Below are positions 43,976 through 54,623 of a DNA stretch of 64,000 nucleotides, in pieces. The stretch is from Micrococcaceae bacterium RIT 802. Its GTDB lineage: Bacteria > Actinomycetota > Actinomycetes > Actinomycetales > Micrococcaceae. The notes beneath the pieces were generated by a model. The model worked only from the letters and a program-made list of their open reading frames with translations. It had not been told where the DNA came from and did not search any database. The stretch lies in the NCBI GenBank assembly GCA_016892645.1, contig JAFEMX010000010.1, positions 1 through 64,000 of the forward strand. Direction: 5' to 3'. Both the position numbers and the translations under genes were made by a program. Within the stretch, counting starts at the first letter, position 1; the number at the start of each line of letters is the position of its first letter.

Positions 43976-45436
43976 ATGTCAGAGACCGACGTCGACCGTC
44001 ACGAAAATCCGGGTGCGAGCACCTCGCTGATCAAGGCGTTGGGCAGCTGGGACACCCTGGCCATCGGGTTCGGGGCCATGATCGGCTTCGGCTGGGTCGT
44101 GCTGACCGGAGGCTGGCTCGAATCGGCCGGGACGCTGGGCGCGGTGCTCGCCTTCGCGGCGGGCGGCGTGATCATGGCGCTGGTGGGCCTGACCTACTCG
44201 GAACTGGTCGCGGCGATGCCGCTGGCCGGCGGCGAGCACAACTACGTCATCCGCGGCATGGGCGCGCGGTGGGCATTCATCTGCTCGTGGGCGATCACTG
44301 GCGGCTACATCACCATCGTCGCCTTCGAGGCGGTGGCGCTACCGCGCACCGCCCTCTACCTCTTCCCCGGGTTGAAGTCGGTCAGACTGTGGGAGATCGC
44401 CGGATCCGAGGTCTTCCTCAGTTGGGCGCTCGTAGGCGCCGGCGCGGCCGTGATCCTGACCGTCCTGAACATCGTGGGAATCAAGCTGGCCAGCGCTGCC
44501 CAAACCTTCGCCGTCGTCTTCCTGCTCATCGTGGGCCTGATGCTGGTGACCGGCTCCTTCGTCGGCGGAGAGACCGGGAACCTGCAGCCGCTGTTCACCG
44601 GTGGTGCCGCGGGCTTCCTGACGGTCCTCGTCGTCGTGCCCTTCCTGTTCGTGGGGTTCGACGTGATCCCGCAGTCGGCCGAGGAGGTCAAGATCCCACC
44701 CCGGCAGGTCGGCAAGCTCGTCGTCGTCTCCGTCATCATGGCCGCCGTCTGGTACATCATGGTGGTGTTGACGACGGCCTCGTCGATGGGCGTGAAGGAT
44801 CTGGCCGGTTCCGAGCTGGCGACGGCGGACGGCATGGCGGCCTTGTGGGGCACCGACGTCATGGGCAAGGTGCTGGTCGCCGGTGGCATCGCCGGCATCA
44901 TCACTTCCTGGAACTCCTTCCTGATCGGTGCCTCGCGGCTGATCTTCGCGATGGGCCGCTCGAAGATGCTCCCGGCATGGTTCGGGCGGTTGAACCCCCG
45001 GTTCCGCACGCCGGCCAACGCACTGTTGTTCATCGGCGCGTTGTCGGTGGCCGCGCCCTTCTTCGGCGAGGCCATGCTCGGGTGGCTGGTCGACTCTGGC
45101 TCGCCGAGCATCGTGATCGCCTACTTCCTGGTCGCCGTGTCGTTCCTGCTGCTGCGCCGCCGGGAACCGGCCATGGACCGGCCGCTGCGCGTGGGCGGGA
45201 AGGGCAAGGGTGGCCTGGTCATCGGCGTCCTGGCCGCCGTGTTGTGCCTGGGGCTGACCAGCCTGTACCTGCCCGGCATGCCGGCTTCGCTGGACGCGGC
45301 ACCGTGGATCCTGTTCGGACTGTGGTGGGTGGTTGGCGCGGCGTTCTTCTTCCGCATTCCGGGCGGCATCAAACCCGGGCCGGAGGCCGAGGAGGATCTG
45401 GCGCGGGCGTTGGCCGCCCGGGCCTCCCGGCGGTAG
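43976..45436 (+). CDS. APC-superfamily amino acid permease
   Basis: 486 aa with about twelve membrane helices. N-terminal GAMIGFGWVVLTGGWLE is the first-helix substrate loop of the family. A good ribosome site (gaggagg, from 43963) precedes ATG 43976. Imports an amino acid or amine; no gene next to it reveals which. Confidence 0.9.
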   Translation: MSETDVDRHENPGASTSLIKALGSWDTLAIGFGAMIGFGWVVLTGGWLESAGTLGAVLAFAAGGVIMALVGLTYSELVAAMPLAGGEHNYVIRGMGARWAFICSWAITGGYITIVAFEAVALPRTALYLFPGLKSVRLWEIAGSEVFLSWALVGAGAAVILTVLNIVGIKLASAAQTFAVVFLLIVGLMLVTGSFVGGETGNLQPLFTGGAAGFLTVLVVVPFLFVGFDVIPQSAEEVKIPPRQVGKLVVVSVIMAAVWYIMVVLTTASSMGVKDLAGSELATADGMAALWGTDVMGKVLVAGGIAGIITSWNSFLIGASRLIFAMGRSKMLPAWFGRLNPRFRTPANALLFIGALSVAAPFFGEAMLGWLVDSGSPSIVIAYFLVAVSFLLLRRREPAMDRPLRVGGKGKGGLVIGVLAAVLCLGLTSLYLPGMPASLDAAPWILFGLWWVVGAAFFFRIPGGIKPGPEAEEDLARALAARASRR

Positions 45437-45489: not shown

Positions 45490-45855
45490 TCAGATCCGGT
45501 CGTGCAGGGTGACGTGGTACCCGTCGGGGTCGACGAAGGTGAAGGTCACGCCAAACGGGCCCTCGGCGGGCGCCGAGGCGACGTGAATGCCGTCGGCGAC
45601 CAGCGCATCGTGGATCTGTTGTGCGTCGGGGGCGTGCATCCACACTCCGATACCCGCCCCCGGCTGGGGCACCGAATCGAGGTCGACTCCCGGGAGCGGC
45701 TCGCGGACGGCAAAGGCGACGGGTTCGGTCGCGAAGACGACAGCATGCGGTGGTCCGGGCTGGCGGCCCAGGCCCAGGTACCTTTCGTAGAACGCCGCAG
45801 CGCGATCGAGGTCTCGTACCTGCAGGGAAATGAAACTGGGACCGGTGGCGGCCAT
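45490..45855 (-). CDS. VOC-family protein controlled by MarR
   Basis: 121 aa, one VOC module (VRDLDRAAAFYERYLGLG, FTFVDPDGYHVTLHD). gagagg precedes ATG 45855. The divergent marR and its two operators suggest an inducible detoxification or resistance function; substrate unknown. Confidence 0.88.
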   Translation of the reverse strand: MAATGPSFISLQVRDLDRAAAFYERYLGLGRQPGPPHAVVFATEPVAFAVREPLPGVDLDSVPQPGAGIGVWMHAPDAQQIHDALVADGIHVASAPAEGPFGVTFTFVDPDGYHVTLHDRI

Positions 45856-45872
45856 GGTGATTCCTCTCGTTG

Positions 45873-45890
45873 ATGTCAGTTAGCTGACAT
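45873..45890. promoter_or_regulatory. MarR operator 1
   Basis: Perfect inverted repeat atgtca-gttagc-tgacat, extended to 7-bp arms if the inner g/c pair is counted. Same arms as operator 2. Confidence 0.85.
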
Positions 45891-45899
45891 GCAAAGCGT

Positions 45900-45917
45900 A
45901 TGTCAGAATGTTGACAT
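45900..45917. promoter_or_regulatory. MarR operator 2
   Basis: Inverted repeat atgtca-gaatgt-tgacat, 27 bp from operator 1 centre to centre, and running into the marR start codon at 45916. Fits autorepression. Confidence 0.85.
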
Positions 45918-46368
45918 GGATCAAGTGCGCACGGGAATCAACCTGGAAACGTCACCGGGCTATCTGCTCAAGGAGGCGGCCAGCGCCTTGCGGACGTCCA
46001 TGGAGGCGGTGCTTCGCCCCCTGGGCATGAACATCACCCATTACTCCTGCCTCGAGCTGTTGGCCCAGCGGCCGGGACTGTCCAATGCCGAACTCGCCCG
46101 GGGTGCCTTCGTGTCGCGGCAGTCGATGAACGTGCTCCTACAGTCGCTCGAACGCGATGGCCTGGTCAGCCGGGCCGAGCAGGCGCCGTCCGGGAGGGCC
46201 CTCCCGACGCGGCTCACGTCGCGCGGCGAACTCCAGCTCCGGGAGGCGAGCGCCGCAGTCAAGGCGGTGGAAACGCGCATGCACGCCGATCTCACTGCCG
46301 CTGAACTGGGTCAGCTGCAAGATCTCCTCGGCCGCTGCATTACGGGCTTGTCCGGCCCGGTCGCCTGA
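45916..46368 (+). CDS. MarR-family regulator
   Basis: 150 aa winged helix. HTH: LSNAELARGAFVSRQSMNVLLQ; wing with Arg-rich tip. ATG 45916 chosen because the upstream in-frame ATG lies inside operator 1. Ligand unknown. Divergent from the VOC gene. Confidence 0.9.
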   Translation: MDQVRTGINLETSPGYLLKEAASALRTSMEAVLRPLGMNITHYSCLELLAQRPGLSNAELARGAFVSRQSMNVLLQSLERDGLVSRAEQAPSGRALPTRLTSRGELQLREASAAVKAVETRMHADLTAAELGQLQDLLGRCITGLSGPVA

Positions 46369-46406
46369 TTCCCCAGACGCCGTCAGGCCGTCGGCGCCGG
46401 ACGCCG

Positions 46407-46703
46407 CTAGGCAACGCCGTCGACGGTCCGGAGCTTTCCAGTGGCCGGGTCGCCGTCATCGAAGAGTAGCCGGCGCGCTTCCTTCAGCGCCCGGCCGGAG
46501 TCCTTCTTGTCGAGCTGGGCGAGCAACAGCAGGTTGGCTATGCGTTGTTCGCGGCGGGTACGGGCTGCCTCGCGGGCCATCTCGACCATTGCCAAGACCC
46601 GGGCGTGGGCGCGCAGCCCGCGGGCCTCGACGCTCGCATCCTCCGGCTGCGTGCAGCTGAGCAGCTCGAGGGCGTCGTTCAAGATGTCACTGGTCGTGGG
46701 CAC
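46407..46703 (-). CDS. Small helical protein, unknown function
   Basis: 98 aa, nearly all helix, Ala/Arg/Leu/Glu-rich (RIANLLLLAQLDKKDSGRAL). ATG 46703. No family recognised. An inverted repeat lies 17 bp upstream. Confidence 0.65.
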   Translation of the reverse strand: MPTTSDILNDALELLSCTQPEDASVEARGLRAHARVLAMVEMAREAARTRREQRIANLLLLAQLDKKDSGRALKEARRLLFDDGDPATGKLRTVDGVA

Positions 46704-46719
46704 GTCACTCGATCCTTGG

Positions 46720-46739
46720 GGATCACCTCAACGTGATCC
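46720..46739. promoter_or_regulatory. Inverted repeat upstream of the small helical gene
   Basis: ggatcac-ctcaac-gtgatcc, perfect 7-bp arms, 17 bp before ATG 46703. Operator or chance; no matching regulator known. Confidence 0.4.
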
Positions 46740-46824
46740 GCATCATGTTCGGTCGTTGGTCTGCCACCCTACCCACCGACCGCGCCCGGGCGAAATCCCC
46801 GACGACCAGGTGAAGCGGACGATG

Positions 46825-46867
46825 CACCAGGCGGTCCCGAAGGTTCAGCCTTCGGGACCGCCTGGTG
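46825..46867 (-). terminator. Strong hairpin downstream of the Nramp-like gene
   Basis: Perfect 19-bp stem with a five-base loop (ttcag on the plus strand), beginning nine bases after the Nramp-like stop. No T-run, common in actinobacterial terminators. Confidence 0.8.
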
Positions 46868-46875
46868 GGTAGCGA

Positions 46876-48204
46876 TCAGCCGAGCAACGTCGTCAACAGG
46901 CGAACCGATGTGGCCAGGATGGCGATTATCCCGACGGCAGCGGCCAGGTTATGCCACCACCTGTTGCGGAGGTCTCCCATGAGCGAACGGCGGTTGCTCA
47001 TGATGACCAGCAAGACGCCCAACAACGGGGAGACCAGGACGGTCAGGGACTGGGCGATGACAATCAGGCCAACCGGGGATCCTTGGAAGGTGAGTGTGGT
47101 GGCCAGTCCAAACGCCAAGATGACTCCCGTGACAACTCGGGCGGTGACGGATCCACCCGCCCCTCCCCTGCCGAGCGCATCCGACAGCATGGTGCCGCCA
47201 GCCGTGGCATTGGCGATCATCGAGGAAAACGCCGCCCCTGAAAGACCCAGGGCGAAGATCGTCGAGCCGACCGCGCCCGCCAACGGTGCGAAAACCGAGG
47301 CCAGGGCATTGATCGTCGCTGCCTCTTGTCCGGTCTTGCCCAGCACCGAGGCCGCGACGACGATGACCAGGACGGTCATGATGCCGGGGGCGACGATTCC
47401 CGGGATCGTGTCCATCAGCGTGATGTCCCGATAGTCGGCGCGGGTCCTGTGGTGTTCACGGATTCCATAGGAGTTGTAGAACGCCGCGTTGATGGAAAAG
47501 TTGGTGCCGACCAGTGCGACCACGAGAATCTCACTGCCCGCCGGCAGCGTCGGCGCCATGCCCTCAAGCGCCTGGTACCAGTCGGGCTGGGCCAGCACCG
47601 CGCTGGCTATGAACGCGACGCCCATGAGGGCGACTACGCCCAGCAGGATCCGCTCGATGATGCCGTAGACGTTCTTGAACGCCAACACGAAACCGACGGC
47701 GATCGTACACACCACAGTCCAGACCACCGGGGAGCCGCCAACGATCATCGACAAGCCGAGCCCGGAACCAACGGCGTTGCCGACCGAGAACATGAGGGTG
47801 ATGAAGAAGACCCCGACGCCGGCAGCGTAGCCAACTGGACGGCCCAGATGCTTCTTGATCGCGCTGATGAGCGAGAGTGGCGAGGCGATGCCGAGCCGAA
47901 CGCTCATGTCGGTGAAGAAGATCATCAACAGCGTCGAGACGGCAATTACCCAGATCAAGGTGTAGCGGTATCCACTGCCCGCCTGGACGGCAGTGGCCAA
48001 ATTGCCGGGACCGAATTGCCACGCACCGACCACGAAGGCCGGCCCCATTAGTGCCAGGTATCCCAGGAGGGTCCGTTTCTCCGGTGAAGCCGATGGGTCT
48101 GCCGCCTTTGGTGCCGATGGATCCGGGACGGCCGCGGCCCTCTCGGCCCGCAGGGTATCAATGCGGCTCTCGGGGTGAGCCGCTGAATCTTTGAGCTCGC
48201 TCAT
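46876..48204 (-). CDS. Nramp-superfamily transporter lacking canonical metal ligands
   Basis: 442 aa, about eleven membrane helices after a 45-residue polar N-terminus. aaggagg sets ATG 48204. Helix 1 reads GPGN (65-68) where metal Nramps have DPGN, and helix 6 reads GTNFSINAA (233-241) where they have MPH. Both key ligands, Asp and Met, are gone, so Mn/Fe transport is unlikely by the standard site. The neighbouring DapA-like aldolase and LacI regulator suggest a different, perhaps organic, substrate; this is inference. Confidence 0.82.
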   Translation of the reverse strand: MSELKDSAAHPESRIDTLRAERAAAVPDPSAPKAADPSASPEKRTLLGYLALMGPAFVVGAWQFGPGNLATAVQAGSGYRYTLIWVIAVSTLLMIFFTDMSVRLGIASPLSLISAIKKHLGRPVGYAAGVGVFFITLMFSVGNAVGSGLGLSMIVGGSPVVWTVVCTIAVGFVLAFKNVYGIIERILLGVVALMGVAFIASAVLAQPDWYQALEGMAPTLPAGSEILVVALVGTNFSINAAFYNSYGIREHHRTRADYRDITLMDTIPGIVAPGIMTVLVIVVAASVLGKTGQEAATINALASVFAPLAGAVGSTIFALGLSGAAFSSMIANATAGGTMLSDALGRGGAGGSVTARVVTGVILAFGLATTLTFQGSPVGLIVIAQSLTVLVSPLLGVLLVIMSNRRSLMGDLRNRWWHNLAAAVGIIAILATSVRLLTTLLG

Positions 48205-48312
48205 GGCGAGACCTCCTTCTACAGCTTCAGCGCTGCTGGCCATCACGGCCTGCGGGGAGTATGGGAAAAGTCTAGGTCTATGGAGAGTGCGCGTCGGGAT
48301 CGGGTTCGTTCA

Positions 48313-48346
48313 CGGGTTGGCCGTAGCGGCAGCCACGGCCAACCCG
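48313..48346 (-). terminator. Hairpin downstream of the DapA-like gene
   Basis: Perfect 12-bp stem cgggttggccgt / acggccaacccg with a ten-base loop, 12 bp after the aldolase stop and before the Nramp-like gene. Would partly separate the two transcripts. No T-run. Confidence 0.65.
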
Positions 48347-48358
48347 GGGATAGATGGA

Positions 48359-49294
48359 TCAGGCCGGGACGGTCACCGAGTTCAGCTGGGCAGATTCCAG
48401 TGCCAGCGCGATCTCGGCGCCGGCCCCTTCGGGCAGGGGCAGCAGCGGTTCCCGGACCGTGGCATGTTCCAGGATGCCGCGGTGCACGAGTCCTTCCTTC
48501 AGCGCAACGGTGCCCTCCATGTGGGAGCCGCGGTGGTAGACCTTCTGAGTGACGGGGAAGAGCCGGTCGTGAATGCGCCGTGCAGCGGCATAGTCACGCG
48601 CTTTGCCGGCAGCAATGAGCTCCACGAGCGGCTCGGGTGCCAATCCGCCGTACCCGACGAGGGCGCCGTCGACATCGAACATGGTGTGCAAGAGATATTC
48701 GTCGTGGCAGGTCAGGATCTGCAACTCCGGGTAGGTGGCGCGCAGGATGGGGATTTCGGTGTCCCAGCGGCGCATGTTCCGGACGCCGTTTTTGGTCGCG
48801 AACACGCCTTCCTGGCCGGCGATGTCGAGTTGAGTTTCCAGGTCGTAGGTGGCCTTGGTGGCGTCCGGGTACTGGAACAGGATGAGCGGCAGCCCGCTGG
48901 TCTCGTAGATTTCCTTGTACCGGGTCTGCGGAGCACCCTTCTGGTAGCCAAAGCGCAGCCAGCCGTGTGACGGGTAGACCAAGCCTGCCGAGGCGCCGGC
49001 CTCGACGGCCCGCTGGGCTTCCTGCGCGGCGACGGTGTTTCCTTCGGCGGTGATGCCGGCAATGATCGGCAGTTGGCCGTCCACGGATTCGCGGAAGGCG
49101 GCGATGACCGACGCCTGCTCTTCTTGTGTGAGGAACGTGCCCTCACCAGCGTGGCCCAGGACGACAAGGCCCTTGACACCGTCGACACTGCCCAACCATG
49201 AACCCAGCCGATGAATGGCCTCAACGTCGACGGCCCCATCGCGGGTGAAGGGGGTGACAGGGGCGGGAACCAGCCCGCGGAGATCGATGCTCAT
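48359..49294 (-). CDS. Dihydrodipicolinate synthase/N-acetylneuraminate lyase-family aldolase
   Basis: 311 aa class I aldolase TIM barrel. Schiff-base Lys168 (VFATKNG) and Tyr142 (FQYPDAT) are present; the GTTGE-type substrate loop reads GHAGEG. It is therefore not housekeeping DapA. ATG 49294 follows agagg; an ATG at 49315 lacks one. Probably cleaves or forms a 2-keto acid of a sugar acid or similar. Same direction as the Nramp-like gene; divergent from lacI. Confidence 0.88.
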   Translation of the reverse strand: MSIDLRGLVPAPVTPFTRDGAVDVEAIHRLGSWLGSVDGVKGLVVLGHAGEGTFLTQEEQASVIAAFRESVDGQLPIIAGITAEGNTVAAQEAQRAVEAGASAGLVYPSHGWLRFGYQKGAPQTRYKEIYETSGLPLILFQYPDATKATYDLETQLDIAGQEGVFATKNGVRNMRRWDTEIPILRATYPELQILTCHDEYLLHTMFDVDGALVGYGGLAPEPLVELIAAGKARDYAAARRIHDRLFPVTQKVYHRGSHMEGTVALKEGLVHRGILEHATVREPLLPLPEGAGAEIALALESAQLNSVTVPA

Positions 49295-49326
49295 TTTCGC
49301 TACCTCTGCATTCATTTGATGTGATG

Positions 49327-49355
49327 TTCCGAAAACTTTGGGAACGTTTGCGGAA
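49327..49355. promoter_or_regulatory. Candidate LacI-family operator
   Basis: ttccgaaaac-nine bases-gtttgcggaa, arms matching at nine of ten positions, between the divergent aldolase and lacI genes. A shorter repeat cacgt-cgca-acgtg lies at 49374-49387. Confidence 0.5.
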
Positions 49356-49480
49356 TCCTTTTCAATAGTGATCCACGTCGCAACGTGATGTCAATAGGCG
49401 CTTGCAGATCCGACGACATAGAGTGATGGCAGGGCCGCGAAGATCGCGTTGCCGCTTGCCAATTGAAGGGAGCCTCGTTC

Positions 49481-50500
49481 ATGGAATCGCCAGAGCACGG
49501 CGTCACGCTCAAGGACGTGGCTGCCGCCGCCGGCGTCAGCATCTCCACAGCGAGTCGCGCTTTGGACGACCGGGGCGCGGCCGTAAAGTCCGACACCGCC
49601 GACCGCGTTCGCCAACTTGCAGAGAAGCTCGGCTATCGACGCAACGCGTTTGCTTCCAGTTTGCGACGAGGGGAAACCCGCACGTTGGGTGTGCTCGTCC
49701 CCCGGCTGAGTGACACGGTCATGGCGATGACCTTCGAGGCTCTTGATCGCGCCGCTGCCGACCGGGGATACTTTGCCATTGTTGCGACCAGCGGAGACGA
49801 CCCGGTCGATGAGCGCCGGGCCGCAGAGACGCTGCTGGACCGCAATGTCGATGGCCTGATTCTGGCCACTGCCCGATTGGACGATCAACTGCCCCGCAGC
49901 CTGCGCGAACGCGGGATTGCGCATTCCCTCGTCTTGCGCACCGATGGCATCAGCCCTTCTGCGCTCGGCGACGACGAGCTCGGTGGCTATCTGGCAGTCC
50001 GCCACCTCCTCGATCTGGGCCACAGCGCCATCGCAGTCGTGACCGGGCCCAATTTCACCTCCAGCGCCAATTCCCGCCTCGAAGGGGCGCGACGTGCGCT
50101 GGATGAAGCCGGAGTGGATTTGCCCGCTTCATGGTCGATTGCTGCTGGGTATGGACTGCGCCAGGGATTCGAAGCCGGCGAGCAATTGTTCGATCCGAGC
50201 TCAGACCGGTTGCCAACTGCTGTCTTTGCCGCGAATGACAATATCGCCTTGGGGTTGATGGCCGTCGCGGCTCGTCGTGGACTGCAGATAGGTTCGGACT
50301 TGGCGCTAGTGGGCTACAACGACATTCCACTGGCTTCGATGCTGCCGACTCCGCTGTCCTCGGTGCATGTCCCCTTTGATGACATCGCACGTACTGCTGT
50401 GGACCTGGTCCTCAAACCACCCTCAGGTGGCCCGCGGCACGCAGCCCTGCCGACCCTGATCCCCCGGGCATCGAGCGGACAGGCACTCCACCCGGCCTAG
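49481..50500 (+). CDS. LacI-family transcriptional regulator
   Basis: 339 aa. N-terminal HTH (VTLKDVAAAAGVSISTASRAL) with hinge helix, then a periplasmic-binding-protein-like sensor domain (LGVLVPRLSDTV, VFAANDNIALGL, LVGYNDIPLA). aaggg sets ATG 49481. Probably represses the aldolase and Nramp-like genes until their substrate appears. Confidence 0.92.
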   Translation: MESPEHGVTLKDVAAAAGVSISTASRALDDRGAAVKSDTADRVRQLAEKLGYRRNAFASSLRRGETRTLGVLVPRLSDTVMAMTFEALDRAAADRGYFAIVATSGDDPVDERRAAETLLDRNVDGLILATARLDDQLPRSLRERGIAHSLVLRTDGISPSALGDDELGGYLAVRHLLDLGHSAIAVVTGPNFTSSANSRLEGARRALDEAGVDLPASWSIAAGYGLRQGFEAGEQLFDPSSDRLPTAVFAANDNIALGLMAVAARRGLQIGSDLALVGYNDIPLASMLPTPLSSVHVPFDDIARTAVDLVLKPPSGGPRHAALPTLIPRASSGQALHPA

Positions 50501-50782
50501 CCTTGGCCCGAAAGGGCCCCCCGGAGCACAACAGAACTTGCGCATCCGTTCCGTGGATTTTCCCCGTGCCACCGATGAATTTGCCGCTCCGCTGCCGGCT
50601 TGCTCTTCCAGCAACTGGGCAATGCGGATTGCTCCGCCGAGTGCTCGATGCGTGGAACGAATGCCATTTAGCCAAGGGTGGGCTGCCTTCAAGCCAGTCC
50701 CGAGCGGACTTCGGCTCGCCTTCACACGGACCCGGCCCGCGGTGTATCGACATGTCACGCCGCCTCCTGCAACGATGTCACC
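50501..50782. other. Spacer with a short hairpin, no gene recognised
   Basis: 282 bp between lacI and the AraC gene. A ggccc-gaaa-gggcc hairpin at 50505-50518 may end the lacI transcript. No recognisable gene, although both strands have open frames. Confidence 0.5.
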
Positions 50783-51646
50783 ATGCCCACCAGCCGCGGC
50801 CCGCTCCGCCCCATCGGCCCAGGAGAAGTGCATCTCAAGCGCTTCGACCCCGCCCCGGCTTTGGCCGGACTGGTCAGGCACTACTGGATCTCGCAGTGGG
50901 ACATCCCGGAGGGTGCAGACCACGAGCAGAGAATCCTCGCCTACCCCGCCTGCAATCTCGTGGTGGAGACCGGTGGGACGACTCCGGATCCGCACGGCCG
51001 GCTCTACGGACCAGTGACGGGCCTGAGCCGCAAGCGCCTGGCGGGCCAGGGCAGCGGGTTCGGGGTGCTGTTCCAACCGGCCGCCGGTGCGTTGCTGTCG
51101 GATGTGCCGATGCTCGAGCTCGCCGATTCCAGCCGTCCGGCCGCGGCCATCGGCTTCACGGCCGGACCGGCGATCGCCGGGGCCCTGGAAACGAGCCCAG
51201 CAGCACCGCCCATCACGGAGGAAGACAGCGACAGTGAAGCACCGCCGTCGTACCTCGGGGTCTTCGAGCACTGGCTGGCGTCCCGACTGCCGGACGGGGT
51301 GGATGACGATGGGCTGCTCATCAACCGCATCGCGGACGAGGTGGAGAACGACGGCGGCCTGCTCCAGGTCCGCGTCCTCGCCTCCCGGTTCGGCCTCGGC
51401 GAGCGCGCACTGCAGCGGCTGGTGCATGAGCGGTTGGGGCTCACGCCCAAATGGCTGATCCAGCGACGGCGGCTCCAGGAGGCCGCCCACCTGCTCTCGC
51501 AGGGGGCTGGGCCGGACCTGGCCCGATTGGCATATGCGCTGGGGTACGCAGACCAGGCGCATTTTTCGCGGGATTTCTCCGCGGTGACGGGGATGAACCC
51601 TACGCAGTATCTCCGCCAGCCAGGAACTGCTCCAACCACGCGTTAA
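50783..51646 (+). CDS. AraC-family regulator
   Basis: 287 aa. N-terminal cupin-like ligand region (DPAPALAGLVRHYWISQWDI, as in the DUF6597 group) and C-terminal double HTH (VLASRFGLGERALQRLVHE; AYALGYADQAHFSRDF). ATG 50783. Overlaps the opposing VOC gene by 47 bp at its 3' end. Confidence 0.88.
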   Translation: MPTSRGPLRPIGPGEVHLKRFDPAPALAGLVRHYWISQWDIPEGADHEQRILAYPACNLVVETGGTTPDPHGRLYGPVTGLSRKRLAGQGSGFGVLFQPAAGALLSDVPMLELADSSRPAAAIGFTAGPAIAGALETSPAAPPITEEDSDSEAPPSYLGVFEHWLASRLPDGVDDDGLLINRIADEVENDGGLLQVRVLASRFGLGERALQRLVHERLGLTPKWLIQRRRLQEAAHLLSQGAGPDLARLAYALGYADQAHFSRDFSAVTGMNPTQYLRQPGTAPTTR

Positions 51647-52317: not shown

Positions 52318-52731
52318 GTGCTGCTCGATGGAATCAACCACGTAGCCGTGCTGTCGCACGATGTCGCGCGTCTCGGACGGTTCTACGAGTCGGTCTTTGA
52401 TGCCGTCGTCGGTGAGACGCGGGACCACGGGCCCGGCGAGACCATGACGAACATCAGCATCGGGCCGGCCACCGTCCTCAACGTCTTCGTCATCGATGGC
52501 AACTCAGAGGCCGACCGGCAAACGCCGATGTGGGGTCGCGGACGCATCGACCATCTTGGCCTGTCGGCCGCATCCGAGGAGGCCTTCGAGGACATCCGCA
52601 CCCGCCTCATCGCCTCCGGTGCCAGCGACGGAAAGATCAACGACTTCGGCTCTGAATTCAGCATCTTCTTCCGTGACCCCGATGGGCTGGAAGGCGAGGT
52701 ACTGGTGAAGAAGTCGGGGCAACGGCCCTAG
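52318..52731 (+). CDS. VOC-family protein
   Basis: 137 aa, one VOC module (DGINHVAVLSHDVARLGRFY; FFRDPDGLEGEVLVK). GTG 52318 is set by aaaggagg (52303-52310). Divergent from the PhnB-like gene. Shares CTAG stop with the HNH gene. Confidence 0.85.
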   Translation: MLLDGINHVAVLSHDVARLGRFYESVFDAVVGETRDHGPGETMTNISIGPATVLNVFVIDGNSEADRQTPMWGRGRIDHLGLSAASEEAFEDIRTRLIASGASDGKINDFGSEFSIFFRDPDGLEGEVLVKKSGQRP

Positions 52732-54623
52732 AAGGGAATGTCGTCGGTGCCTTCGTCTGTTTTTCCCGAGCGGCTTTCCCACCGGTCCACCGGGTCCTCG
52801 AAGTTCACCTTTCGCGGGCCATAGCCGCCGGCATTGCGCTTCAGCCGCCGTTTCCGGGCGCCCTTTGCGTGGCTGGTCTTGGCATACCGTCCAAACTCCG
52901 GGTTCTCGCATGACGGGTCGGGTACGTCATCGACCTTGCCCCAGTCCCCGGAGGCGGGCTGCTGGCCGTCGCTTCCGGCGGTGGCTTCAGCCTCCGCACC
53001 GTCGTTCTTCTCGCCGTCTGCCGAGTGATCTTTCGGTGTGGAAGGCCCGCTGGCCCACGGCGCGGACGGAGTCGTCCCCTGGCGCGTGCCGAACAGGCTG
53101 GTCACCACCATGCTGCCATCAGCGGCCTCCTCGAAGTGGAGCAAGCCCAGCGATTTCAGCCGGTGGCAGCGACGACACCTTAACCGCATGTTGCCCAGAT
53201 CGGTACCGCCACCTTCGTGCCATTCCTGCACATGGTCCGCATCGCAGTACTCCACCCGGCCGGGGCATCCCGGTGTGCAGCAACCTCCGTCCCTGAATTG
53301 CAGTGCTGCTCGTTGGGCAGCGGTGGGCCGGTACCGGTTCTGTCCGAACTTCACGATGGCCCCGGTCATCGGATCGGTGATCACCCGCCACCAGGTTTTC
53401 GCGGAGGACATGAACCGTGCCGCCGAGTCCTGGTCCACGGGGCCACCGCCCAGGAGCGTCGGCACCAGGGCTCCCGGTGGCAGCTCTGCAGTTCCCACCT
53501 GGACAGGTTCGAGATCGCCGTTGTCCACGTGAACGGTGCCAGATGATTCCCCGCAGGGCGCCGAACCGTCGGTGGCTGTGTTGTCGACGCTCATGGGCCC
53601 GTCAGGAAGGCCCGGGAGCATGGTGGCCGGAATCGTGATGAAGACTTCCGGCTGGATCGCGGCCAGTCCCTTCCCGGAGTCGCCGTCGAGCACCATCTCC
53701 ACGAATACATCGGCCCGCAACTGCTCCAGGGTCCGTAGCTCGGAGGGGTCGTCCATGAGGACCCCCGAGGGCAAGGCGGGCTGCTCCCCTGTGCCGGGAG
53801 CCGGCACGGCCGTGGCTGTATCTGGATCGGCTTTGAGCGCCCGGGCCACGGCGTCCACCTTGGAGTACATGGCCTGGCACCGGGCGGTGGGCAATAAACC
53901 AGTGAACCAGGACATCCCGTCCGCTGCATCATCGATCATGATCCGCCGGTCCCGTAGTGCGGTACGGCACCGCTTCGTGTACGAGATCTCGTAGTACTTC
54001 TCCAGCAGTTGCCGACCCCGGGTACGCAGCTGTGCCGGGGACTTGCCGGGCGCAGCGGCCAGCATGTCGGCACCGAAATCACGTCGGGCGGCTTGGGCCG
54101 CGGTGGCCAAGCGTGCGCGCTCTCTTTCCCATTCCTCCCGGGTGGCCTCGTCTGACTGCCGGCTGGGCAGTGGGGGCACCTCGGGCACGATGTTCTTGAC
54201 CTGGTCCAGGATCCGCTGCACGTGACTCGCTCCGATACGACCCGCTGCCAAGGATTCGATGACCTCGGGGGTATCCCCCACCAAGGTTTCGGCTTGGTCC
54301 AGGATCCGATGCCCCTGGCCAGGCGAGATACTGAGCACCAGTGCAATTTCCATGGCGGTGCTCTCGGTCGCGGCGAACGAGGACATCCGCCCACTGCGCA
54401 CCGAGACTCCCATGCCGGGGTCATCCTCGAGTTCATCCAGCAGGGATGGGACGGCGCGTTGGGCTTCTGCGAGGAGCATGACTGCGGCATGGAATTTCTC
54501 GGCTTCGGCAAACCGGGCCAGGGCCTCGGCTGCCTTCAGTCGGCTTGAACCATCCACGGCGGCACCGGCGGCACGGGCGATTTCCCACCCGTTGACCTCG
54601 ACCTCGCCCGTGTTTCGTTCCAT
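52728..54623 (-). CDS. DUF222-HNH endonuclease-type protein
   Basis: 631 aa. N-terminal DUF222 (about 10-300), low-complexity linkers, then an HNH domain with CDADHVQEWHEGGGT, NMRLRCRRCHRLK and a Cys-containing zinc site (CCTPGCPG). An Asp/Glu/Ser-rich tail ends in a basic stretch. Abundant family in actinobacteria, often in many copies per genome; biological role unsettled. Confidence 0.9.
   Translation of the reverse strand: MERNTGEVEVNGWEIARAAGAAVDGSSRLKAAEALARFAEAEKFHAAVMLLAEAQRAVPSLLDELEDDPGMGVSVRSGRMSSFAATESTAMEIALVLSISPGQGHRILDQAETLVGDTPEVIESLAAGRIGASHVQRILDQVKNIVPEVPPLPSRQSDEATREEWERERARLATAAQAARRDFGADMLAAAPGKSPAQLRTRGRQLLEKYYEISYTKRCRTALRDRRIMIDDAADGMSWFTGLLPTARCQAMYSKVDAVARALKADPDTATAVPAPGTGEQPALPSGVLMDDPSELRTLEQLRADVFVEMVLDGDSGKGLAAIQPEVFITIPATMLPGLPDGPMSVDNTATDGSAPCGESSGTVHVDNGDLEPVQVGTAELPPGALVPTLLGGGPVDQDSAARFMSSAKTWWRVITDPMTGAIVKFGQNRYRPTAAQRAALQFRDGGCCTPGCPGRVEYCDADHVQEWHEGGGTDLGNMRLRCRRCHRLKSLGLLHFEEAADGSMVVTSLFGTRQGTTPSAPWASGPSTPKDHSADGEKNDGAEAEATAGSDGQQPASGDWGKVDDVPDPSCENPEFGRYAKTSHAKGARKRRLKRNAGGYGPRKVNFEDPVDRWESRSGKTDEGTDDIPF

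Follow-up and report, generated by a model that had tools for sequence, protein, structure and literature searches.

The locus described here raises the question of what is carried by a membrane protein that belongs to the Nramp metal-ion transporter family, known for the import of manganese and iron, but has lost its metal ligands, when its gene stands beside those of a DapA-like lyase and a LacI-family regulator. The three genes lie at 46,876 to 50,500 of the first 64,000 nucleotides of contig JAFEMX010000010.1 from Micrococcaceae bacterium RIT 802 (GCA_016892645.1); this whole 64-kb stretch is referred to as the window. The reading favored here, to which we assign a probability of roughly 0.85, is that of an Nramp-related importer of a small 2-oxo acid that would be cleaved by the lyase, the two forming a LacI-repressed two-gene catabolic unit. 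It is built on what sequence and comparison provide directly, namely the gene unit and its conservation, the loss of the metal ligands, the Schiff-base lysine of the lyase, a conserved palindrome and the replacement of the carrier beside the same lyase. The parts of the locus are as follows.

46876 to 48204, minus strand: Nramp-related transporter gene, 442 amino acids from the ATG at 48204; the open reading frame (ORF) extends up to a GTG at 48246
48314 to 48345, minus strand: near-perfect inverted repeat in the lyase-transporter intergenic region, with a 14-bp stem and without a T run
48359 to 49294, minus strand: DapA-like (DHDPS/NAL family) lyase gene, 311 amino acids from the ATG at 49294; the ORF extends up to an ATG at 49315
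49340 to 49351, no strand: operator palindrome GGGAACGTTTGC, presumably that of LacI, and the sole GSRAACGTTYSC site in the 64 kb
49365 to 49394, minus strand: possible promoter of the lyase-transporter pair, read by eye (TTGACA at 49394-49389, 18 bases, CACTAT at 49370-49365)
49481 to 50500, plus strand: LacI-family regulator gene, divergent from the lyase-transporter pair, with PF00356 and PF13377 (Peripla_BP_3)

On the minus strand the lyase gene precedes the transporter gene, and with the divergent LacI gene they form a divergon. The likely true starts, as read from the sequence, are situated slightly inside the ORFs of a first-pass annotation of this DNA: the transporter ATG is preceded by a ribosome-binding site (AGAAGGAGGT, 48220-48211) and the lyase ATG by GAGGTAG. 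The putative promoter lies directly upstream of the operator.

The transporter belongs to the Nramp superfamily both by profile and by its predicted Nramp (LeuT-type) fold. It matches PF01566 over profile positions 1-356 of 357 with 236.4 bits (cut-off 29.8), and the 29 best PDB matches of its AlphaFold model (pLDDT 83.7) are all Nramp-family entries, with TMt values of 0.86-0.89 for ranks 1-15. The general NCBIfam model NF037982, 'Nramp family divalent metal transporter', is passed (99.6 vs a cut-off of 50), and the MntH model NF001923 gives 145.5 bits, under its cut-off of 430. In alignment with DraNramp, transmembrane helix (TM) 1 has GPGN in place of DPGN, TM6 has TNFSINA in place of ATVMPHV, and TM3 has SVGN in place of the DLAE that is also found in the genome's own MntH. 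The first-pass annotation was thus right in describing an Nramp-like protein without metal ligands; its 'INAA' for TM6 correctly caught the replacement of MPH but was shifted by about one residue, the aligned replacement being S-I-N. The TM3 proton-pathway positions are neutral instead of acidic, rendering a canonical proton route unlikely, while the TM10 glutamine is retained. The same pattern runs through the clade of lyase-linked transporters, with GPGN in TM1 in 15 of 18 rows, GPGA in the remaining three and MPH in none of the 18. By its ligands, its TM3 residues, its MntH score and its place in the tree (see below), the protein therefore does not qualify as a canonical metal Nramp.

The lyase is a DHDPS/NAL superfamily member by its PF00701 match (DHDPS family, 113.5 bits), its modeled TIM barrel and its lysine, so that the earlier label of a DapA-like neighbor holds. 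The model has the DHDPS fold, with Z 30-32 to the 50 DHDPS/NAL entries listed; structure searches confirm this fold but do not separate DHDPS from aldolases among the listed matches. Lys175 aligns with the DHDPS Schiff-base lysine and is invariant in 34 rows, as are H55, E58, H117, R121, R132, Y149, R179, H204, R262 and H265. The enzyme does not behave as DapA proper, scoring 103 bits against an equivalog cut-off of 206 and falling under the cut-off of all seven NCBIfam models matched. By alignment, GHAGE replaces GTTGE, Phe147 stands at the position of Tyr133 and Ala152 at that of Arg138, where the numbering and the roles of Tyr133 and Arg138 are those we take to apply to E. coli DapA. Of the subfamily rows, all 32 have FQYP and 31 have GHAGE, the exception reading GHPGE.

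The arrangement of these genes is strongly conserved. A scan of one genome for each of 84,980 species used an 11-row alignment by way of two peptide patterns (F[VI][AV]GAWQF and NFS[IMV]NAAF), and the best 80 of 137 transporter relatives were analyzed; the motif conservation seen in these 80 follows in part from the choice of patterns. The lyase gene lies directly upstream of the transporter gene in 78 of the 80 loci (tblastn) and adjoins it in 79, with L116 having the lyase downstream and L115 being cut by a contig end. Seventy-five loci contain the full LacI-lyase-transporter divergon. The other five are L074 (LacI reversed), L087 (LacI farther off), L114 and L115 (cut by contig ends) and L116, and for the Brevundimonas locus L107 the lyase was only partly matched by a second method. 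The 80 loci carry 19 genus names plus four further records; 64 are from Micrococcaceae or Microbacteriaceae and two from Brevundimonas. The next commonest neighbor family occurs in only seven loci, as counted in 8-kb flanks with clusters at at least 40% identity and a rough gene caller that misses some genes. In a second genome set, which may overlap with the 80, the lyase is beside the transporter in 31 of 31 loci including that of the window, with transporter identities of 48-76% in the other 30. With mechanically assigned starts, a 4-base overlap between the lyase ORF and the transporter ORF is present in L177 and L179 and absent in L178. This arrangement is far beyond chance, and the unit is an accessory trait: it is present in 32 of 395 genomes of the window's family (E 1e-70; nine of 32 genera), in neither of two genomes of the same genus, and, of 296 genomes sampled from the phylum, in that of the window alone.

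Outside this core distribution, the carrier beside the lyase is exchanged. A search for the lyase subfamily on proteobacterial plasmids yielded 63 plasmid records at E 1e-40, which also include more distant enzymes from other phyla. Seventeen plasmid lyase loci were read, of which 15 have a lyase identity of at least 59%; the proteobacterial lyases paired with other carriers are 59-84% identical to that of the window. An MFS gene is next to the lyase in 12 of these 15 (Burkholderia, Klebsiella, Acinetobacter, Rhizobium, Cupriavidus, Rahnella, four Agrobacterium, Azospirillum and Azoarcus). The three others have an Nramp gene 59% identical to the window transporter (Neorhizobium petrolearium), a TAXI-TRAP system (Marivivens), and hydantoinase, FAH and TTT genes with none of MFS, Nramp or TAXI-TRAP (Microvirga). 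The regulator is LacI in ten and LysR in five of the fifteen. The two distant plasmid lyases are from Priestia (36%, with LacI and MFS) and Novosphingobium (38%, with a sodium:solute symporter). All four MFS proteins tested match TIGR00895 (aromatic acid/H+ symport) best, with 213-241 bits against a cut-off of 419, so that their subfamily is only approximate. In other proteobacterial genomes the same slot is filled by a Dcu-family carrier (G890, chromosomal), an Nramp protein (G758) or an MFS protein recognized by eye (G965). The lyase was matched in four of 299 genomes drawn from Proteobacteria, G708 included, and wider draws from two proteobacterial orders gave no further lyase matches. A relative of the G890 lyase gene is carried by 14 of 5426 complete E. 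coli genomes, and the three loci read (L147-L149) contain LacI, lyase, an FAH-family protein and a Dcu-type carrier, with a divergent MFS gene and a porin gene.

In Neorhizobium the lyase shares 91% identity with the R. leguminosarum enzyme and 68% with the window enzyme, and the LacI shares 79% with that of R. leguminosarum and has the same operator; the carrier slot holds an Nramp gene in Neorhizobium and an MFS gene in R. leguminosarum. On these sequences, Neorhizobium is a clean carrier replacement. In the lyase tree, the transporter label needs seven changes for four groups (3-5 changes in bootstrap trees), a single label having been chosen for operons that contain MFS as well as Dcu. An alphaproteobacterial lyase group (91/64) mixes Nramp, MFS and TRAP, and forcing the Nramp-linked lyases into one clade is rejected by the approximately unbiased (AU) test (log-likelihood 177 lower, p 6e-53). 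Such a swap of carriers beside the same lyase, the strongest line of evidence here, would fit an organic substrate and not a metal. With MFS, TAXI-TRAP or Dcu carriers in the same slot, often with the same LacI and operator, the proposal of the first-pass annotation that the locus serves the uptake and breakdown of a small organic compound gains support.

The regulatory elements follow the same pattern. The first-pass annotation had reported a LacI regulator, borne out by its two domain matches, and a palindrome between lacI and dapA, which is indeed there. The strict GSRAACGTTYSC site is present in 46 of 76 lacI/dapA intergenic regions (window included), with zero occurrences in each of 200 letter shuffles, and all 63 strict sites in the other 75 loci (1.23 Mb) fall in this intergenic region. 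In 19 of the 30 regions that lack a strict site, the best palindrome is ACGTTCCCGCAAACGT. Among the plasmid loci, all eight alphaproteobacterial ones that have LacI also carry the strict site (six beside an MFS, one beside a TRAP and one beside an Nramp carrier), as does G758, and the five LysR loci all lack it. Since the strict palindrome is common to LacI loci with MFS, TRAP or Nramp, one regulator-operator pair appears to be used with different carriers in many lineages. The window LacI is 49-55% identical to the LacI of eight compared loci with another carrier beside the lyase, and 53% and 60% identical to those of Neorhizobium and G758, both with Nramp. The GGGAACGTTCCC DNA is presumably the operator of this LacI. 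In the whole source genome the operator pattern occurs five times versus once for a reversed control. None of the other four sites lies in a LacI divergon (rough ORF list), although one is near a DapA paralog beside apparent lysine-biosynthesis genes; the regulon is therefore probably the lyase-transporter unit alone.

From these features we infer import, the kind of compound imported, the lyase reaction, the contact between LacI and its operator, and the inducer. The Nramp-related protein would import a small organic acid as food, as suggested by its exchangeable carrier partners. The lyase would bind the imported 2-oxo acid via Lys175 as a Schiff base and then cleave it, most likely in a retro-aldol reaction that yields pyruvate together with another small acid or an aldehyde. 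From the palindrome at 49340-49351, LacI may repress both genes and be released by the substrate or a product. The actinobacterial neighbors do not identify the substrate, as beyond the trio nothing occurs in more than seven of the 80 loci. The extra genes of Gram-negatives hint only at carboxylates: the Klebsiella and Rahnella loci, like the three of E. coli, contain an FAH-family protein and a Dcu carrier, Microvirga has its hydantoinase, FAH and TTT genes, and in G758 a PEP-mutase-family protein, which we take to be oxaloacetate-decarboxylase-like, follows LacI. The 'sugar-acid-type aldolase' of the first-pass annotation is a plausible description; the Dcu, TAXI-TRAP, FAH-family and PEP-mutase-family companions of the lyase and its many invariant Arg and His residues lean toward a di- or tricarboxylic 2-oxo acid, the best guess for the substrate but a tentative one that we consider less likely than not. 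The compounds considered, without any being singled out, were 4-carboxy-4-hydroxy-2-oxoadipate, 4-hydroxy-2-oxoglutarate, 4-hydroxy-4-methyl-2-oxoglutarate and 2-keto-3-deoxy sugar acids.

The most obvious alternative is that the protein imports a divalent metal (Mn, Fe or Mg) through an altered site and merely travels with a catabolic gene, for example to supply a cofactor. Class I (Schiff-base) lyases need no metal, however, and MFS, TAXI-TRAP or Dcu carriers take the place of the Nramp protein next to this lyase, frequently under an unchanged LacI and palindrome. Moreover, the source genome has its own canonical MntH, which also speaks for the organic-acid reading, and an Rfam search of 45800-51000 at gathering thresholds gave no match such as an M-box or Mn riboswitch. 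The alternative draws on the PF01566 membership and Nramp fold, and on relatives: in excerpts of the respective papers EleNRMT moves Mg without canonical motifs (PMC12873925), NrmT genes rescue Mg-deficient cells (PMC4072509) and MntG is claimed as a Mn importer (PMC10448178). Altogether we consider metal import very improbable. A mixed possibility, in which the organic acid is moved as a metal chelate (e.g. Mg or Mn with a di- or tricarboxylate) and both are the substrate, would suit the Nramp fold and the polar Asn82 and Gln399 retained near the ancestral site. Carboxylates do chelate metals, but MFS and Dcu carriers usually move free acids, and no metal-handling gene recurs in the 80 loci; this appears more improbable still. 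Least probable of all is export of the lyase product instead of import of its substrate. Sequence does not reveal direction, and Dcu-type carriers can exchange dicarboxylates, yet this explanation would leave the lyase of the 80 loci without any recurrent importer, and the porins that accompany MFS versions in several Gram-negatives suit uptake.

Several observations weigh against the organic-acid import reading itself. Excerpts of the work on YcsG/MntG support Mn import in B. subtilis by a member of another Nramp-related clade (PMC10448178), so that loss of DPGN and MPH does not exclude metal transport. A cation could also still find ligands in the polar residues Asn82, TM6 Ser/Asn, Asn157 and Gln399. 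The strict palindrome is absent from the Brevundimonas L107, Klebsiella, Rahnella, E. coli (L148) and G890 loci, even though the LacI of the Klebsiella, Rahnella, E. coli and G890 loci is about 55% identical to that of the window (55.1-55.4% for the three compared, Klebsiella, E. coli and G890). As for the lyase tree, its bootstrap is not settled and its inner branches are in many cases weak; taken by themselves, the starred branches require no more than one origin of the Nramp label. No characterized member was found for the lyase subfamily, whose Tyr133 equivalent is Phe, and no transport, growth or binding data were found for the lyase-linked clade.

The organic-acid import reading agrees with the transporter phylogeny, although long branches in the 35-row Nramp tree limit deeper claims. 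The 18 lyase-linked rows form a single starred branch (97/96), and the three canonical metal Nramps a separate one (100/98). EleNRMT, a single long-branch row, and a Pseudoalteromonas protein group with the latter (97/96). In answer to the phylogenetic check suggested by the first-pass annotation, the lyase-linked clade is thus placed apart from both the canonical Nramps and EleNRMT, and not among metal transporters. Its nearest outsider is a haloarchaeal protein (98/91), itself on a long branch, and a further starred clade consists of two PxpT-type rows, one of which comes from a PxpA-containing locus. The haloarchaeal protein, with GPGS (L160, 4944-9986), directly precedes a heparinase II/III-like protein and a Gfo/Idh/MocA oxidoreductase.

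The source genome encodes six PF01566 proteins. One is the canonical MntH (DPGN, MPH) beside an iron-dependent-repressor-family regulator, and four of the five non-canonical ones, the window transporter included, adjoin organic catabolism genes. A PxpT-type protein (L151 on contig C12, 4788-6994) directly precedes a D-glutamate cyclase family gene, with no pxpABC recognized within the 11 kb covered by a rough ORF list. A protein with GSGE in TM1 (L152 on C38, 1278-7007) appears to share an operon with an acid-sugar kinase (SBD_N/NBD_C)-PdxA fusion, a DeoR regulator and a 2-hydroxyacid dehydrogenase, a context that suggests a sugar-acid importer; another GSGE protein precedes a zinc alcohol dehydrogenase gene. 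On plasmids, the PxpT type is beside PxpA in one Klebsiella case, and five of eight records of GSGE relatives were read. Three of these lie beside acid-sugar kinase, PdxA and 2-hydroxyacid dehydrogenase (Streptomyces, L155, much like L152), UxaA (Rubrobacter) and GH43 (Microscilla), whereas the Skermanella one is beside an SLC13 permease. On the Rubrobacter plasmid (L156, 4935-11356), two Nramp-family genes flank the UxaA-family hydrolase gene, the second being a very long branch. Not all contexts fit an organic role for Nramp-related proteins: the Roseomonas GSGE protein stands beside siderophore-type genes, and the contexts of the C35 paralog in the source genome and of the Pseudoalteromonas protein do not fit it either.

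It is possible, although we would place it somewhat below even odds, that the prokaryotic Nramp superfamily has a large organic-acid arm that includes the lyase-linked clade, and that metal transport with DPGN and MPH is a derived specialty within a family of organic-solute carriers. The branches of the proposed arm would be the lyase-linked GPG[NA] type, the PxpT-type GPGF proteins beside 5-oxoprolinase or D-glutamate cyclase, the GSGE type beside acid-sugar kinase-PdxA, 2-hydroxyacid dehydrogenase, UxaA-family or GH43 genes, and the haloarchaeal GPGS type beside the heparinase-like protein. Divalent metal transporter is the routine label of Nramp-related proteins, as seen in the annotated plasmid matches. 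Should the organic-acid import reading of the present locus be right, many proteins annotated in this way are mislabeled, and the question of how metal transport arose in SLC11 becomes open to test. The conserved set of enzyme, regulator and operator with its exchangeable carrier allows a direct complementation test of the substrate class.

Other features of the window lie around the unit. The inverted repeat between the lyase and transporter genes is a possible intercistronic RNA element, the 186-base region folded for it having a z of -2.8 versus shuffles. An AA_permease_2 amino-acid permease family protein is encoded at 43976-45436, near a MarR regulator at 45889-46368, and is unrelated to the lyase-transporter unit as far as seen. 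Farther off, at 52728-54623, lies a gene for a DUF222/HNH endonuclease protein of 631 amino acids.

Among the open-licence PMC literature no report of the lyase-transporter pair was found. With the DHDPS/NAL family (DapA, N-acetylneuraminate lyase, KDG aldolase, HOGA) the window lyase shares the TIM barrel and the Schiff-base lysine, but it differs from DapA in GHAGE for GTTGE, Phe147 for Tyr133 and Ala152 for Arg138. Canonical Nramp/MntH proteins (DraNramp, BfraNramp) resemble the window transporter in fold and length and are its top structural matches; their DPGN, MPH and acidic TM3 residues are lost in the window, where LacI and not a metal regulator adjoins. NrmT and EleNRMT are likewise Nramp-related without canonical metal motifs or proton-pathway residues. 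EleNRMT differs in having DAGG in TM1 and TTIAPWM in TM6 and in lying on the canonical side of the tree. The partners of NrmT in excerpts of PMC4072509, an M-box or MgtE-domain, do not recur in the 80 loci, nor did Rfam find a match around the unit. The same excerpts suggest that the Nramp outgroup may connect the metal carriers with carriers of other kinds of substrate. Elsewhere, excerpts call the Nramp-related groups other than NRMT and MntG entirely uncharacterized (PMC12873925) or treat a broad Nramp-related alignment wholly as likely metal transporters (PMC13060092). A further related system is PxpT of C. glutamicum, which according to excerpts of PMC13274462 is required for growth on 5-oxoproline and has relatives in the Nramp family, metal transport not being excluded there. 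Its B. subtilis counterpart YcsG has been renamed MntG as a Mn importer (excerpts of PMC10448178). Like the window transporter, PxpT and YcsG belong to the Nramp family without DPGN or MPH and are encoded beside catabolic enzymes, in C. glutamicum with a dedicated repressor. PxpT differs in its separate clade, its GPGF in TM1 and GTVGGYI in TM6, and its association with pxpABC and GntR instead of a DapA-like lyase and LacI. There is thus one precedent for an organic-acid Nramp, PxpT with 5-oxoproline, and it comes from another clade than the transporter described here.

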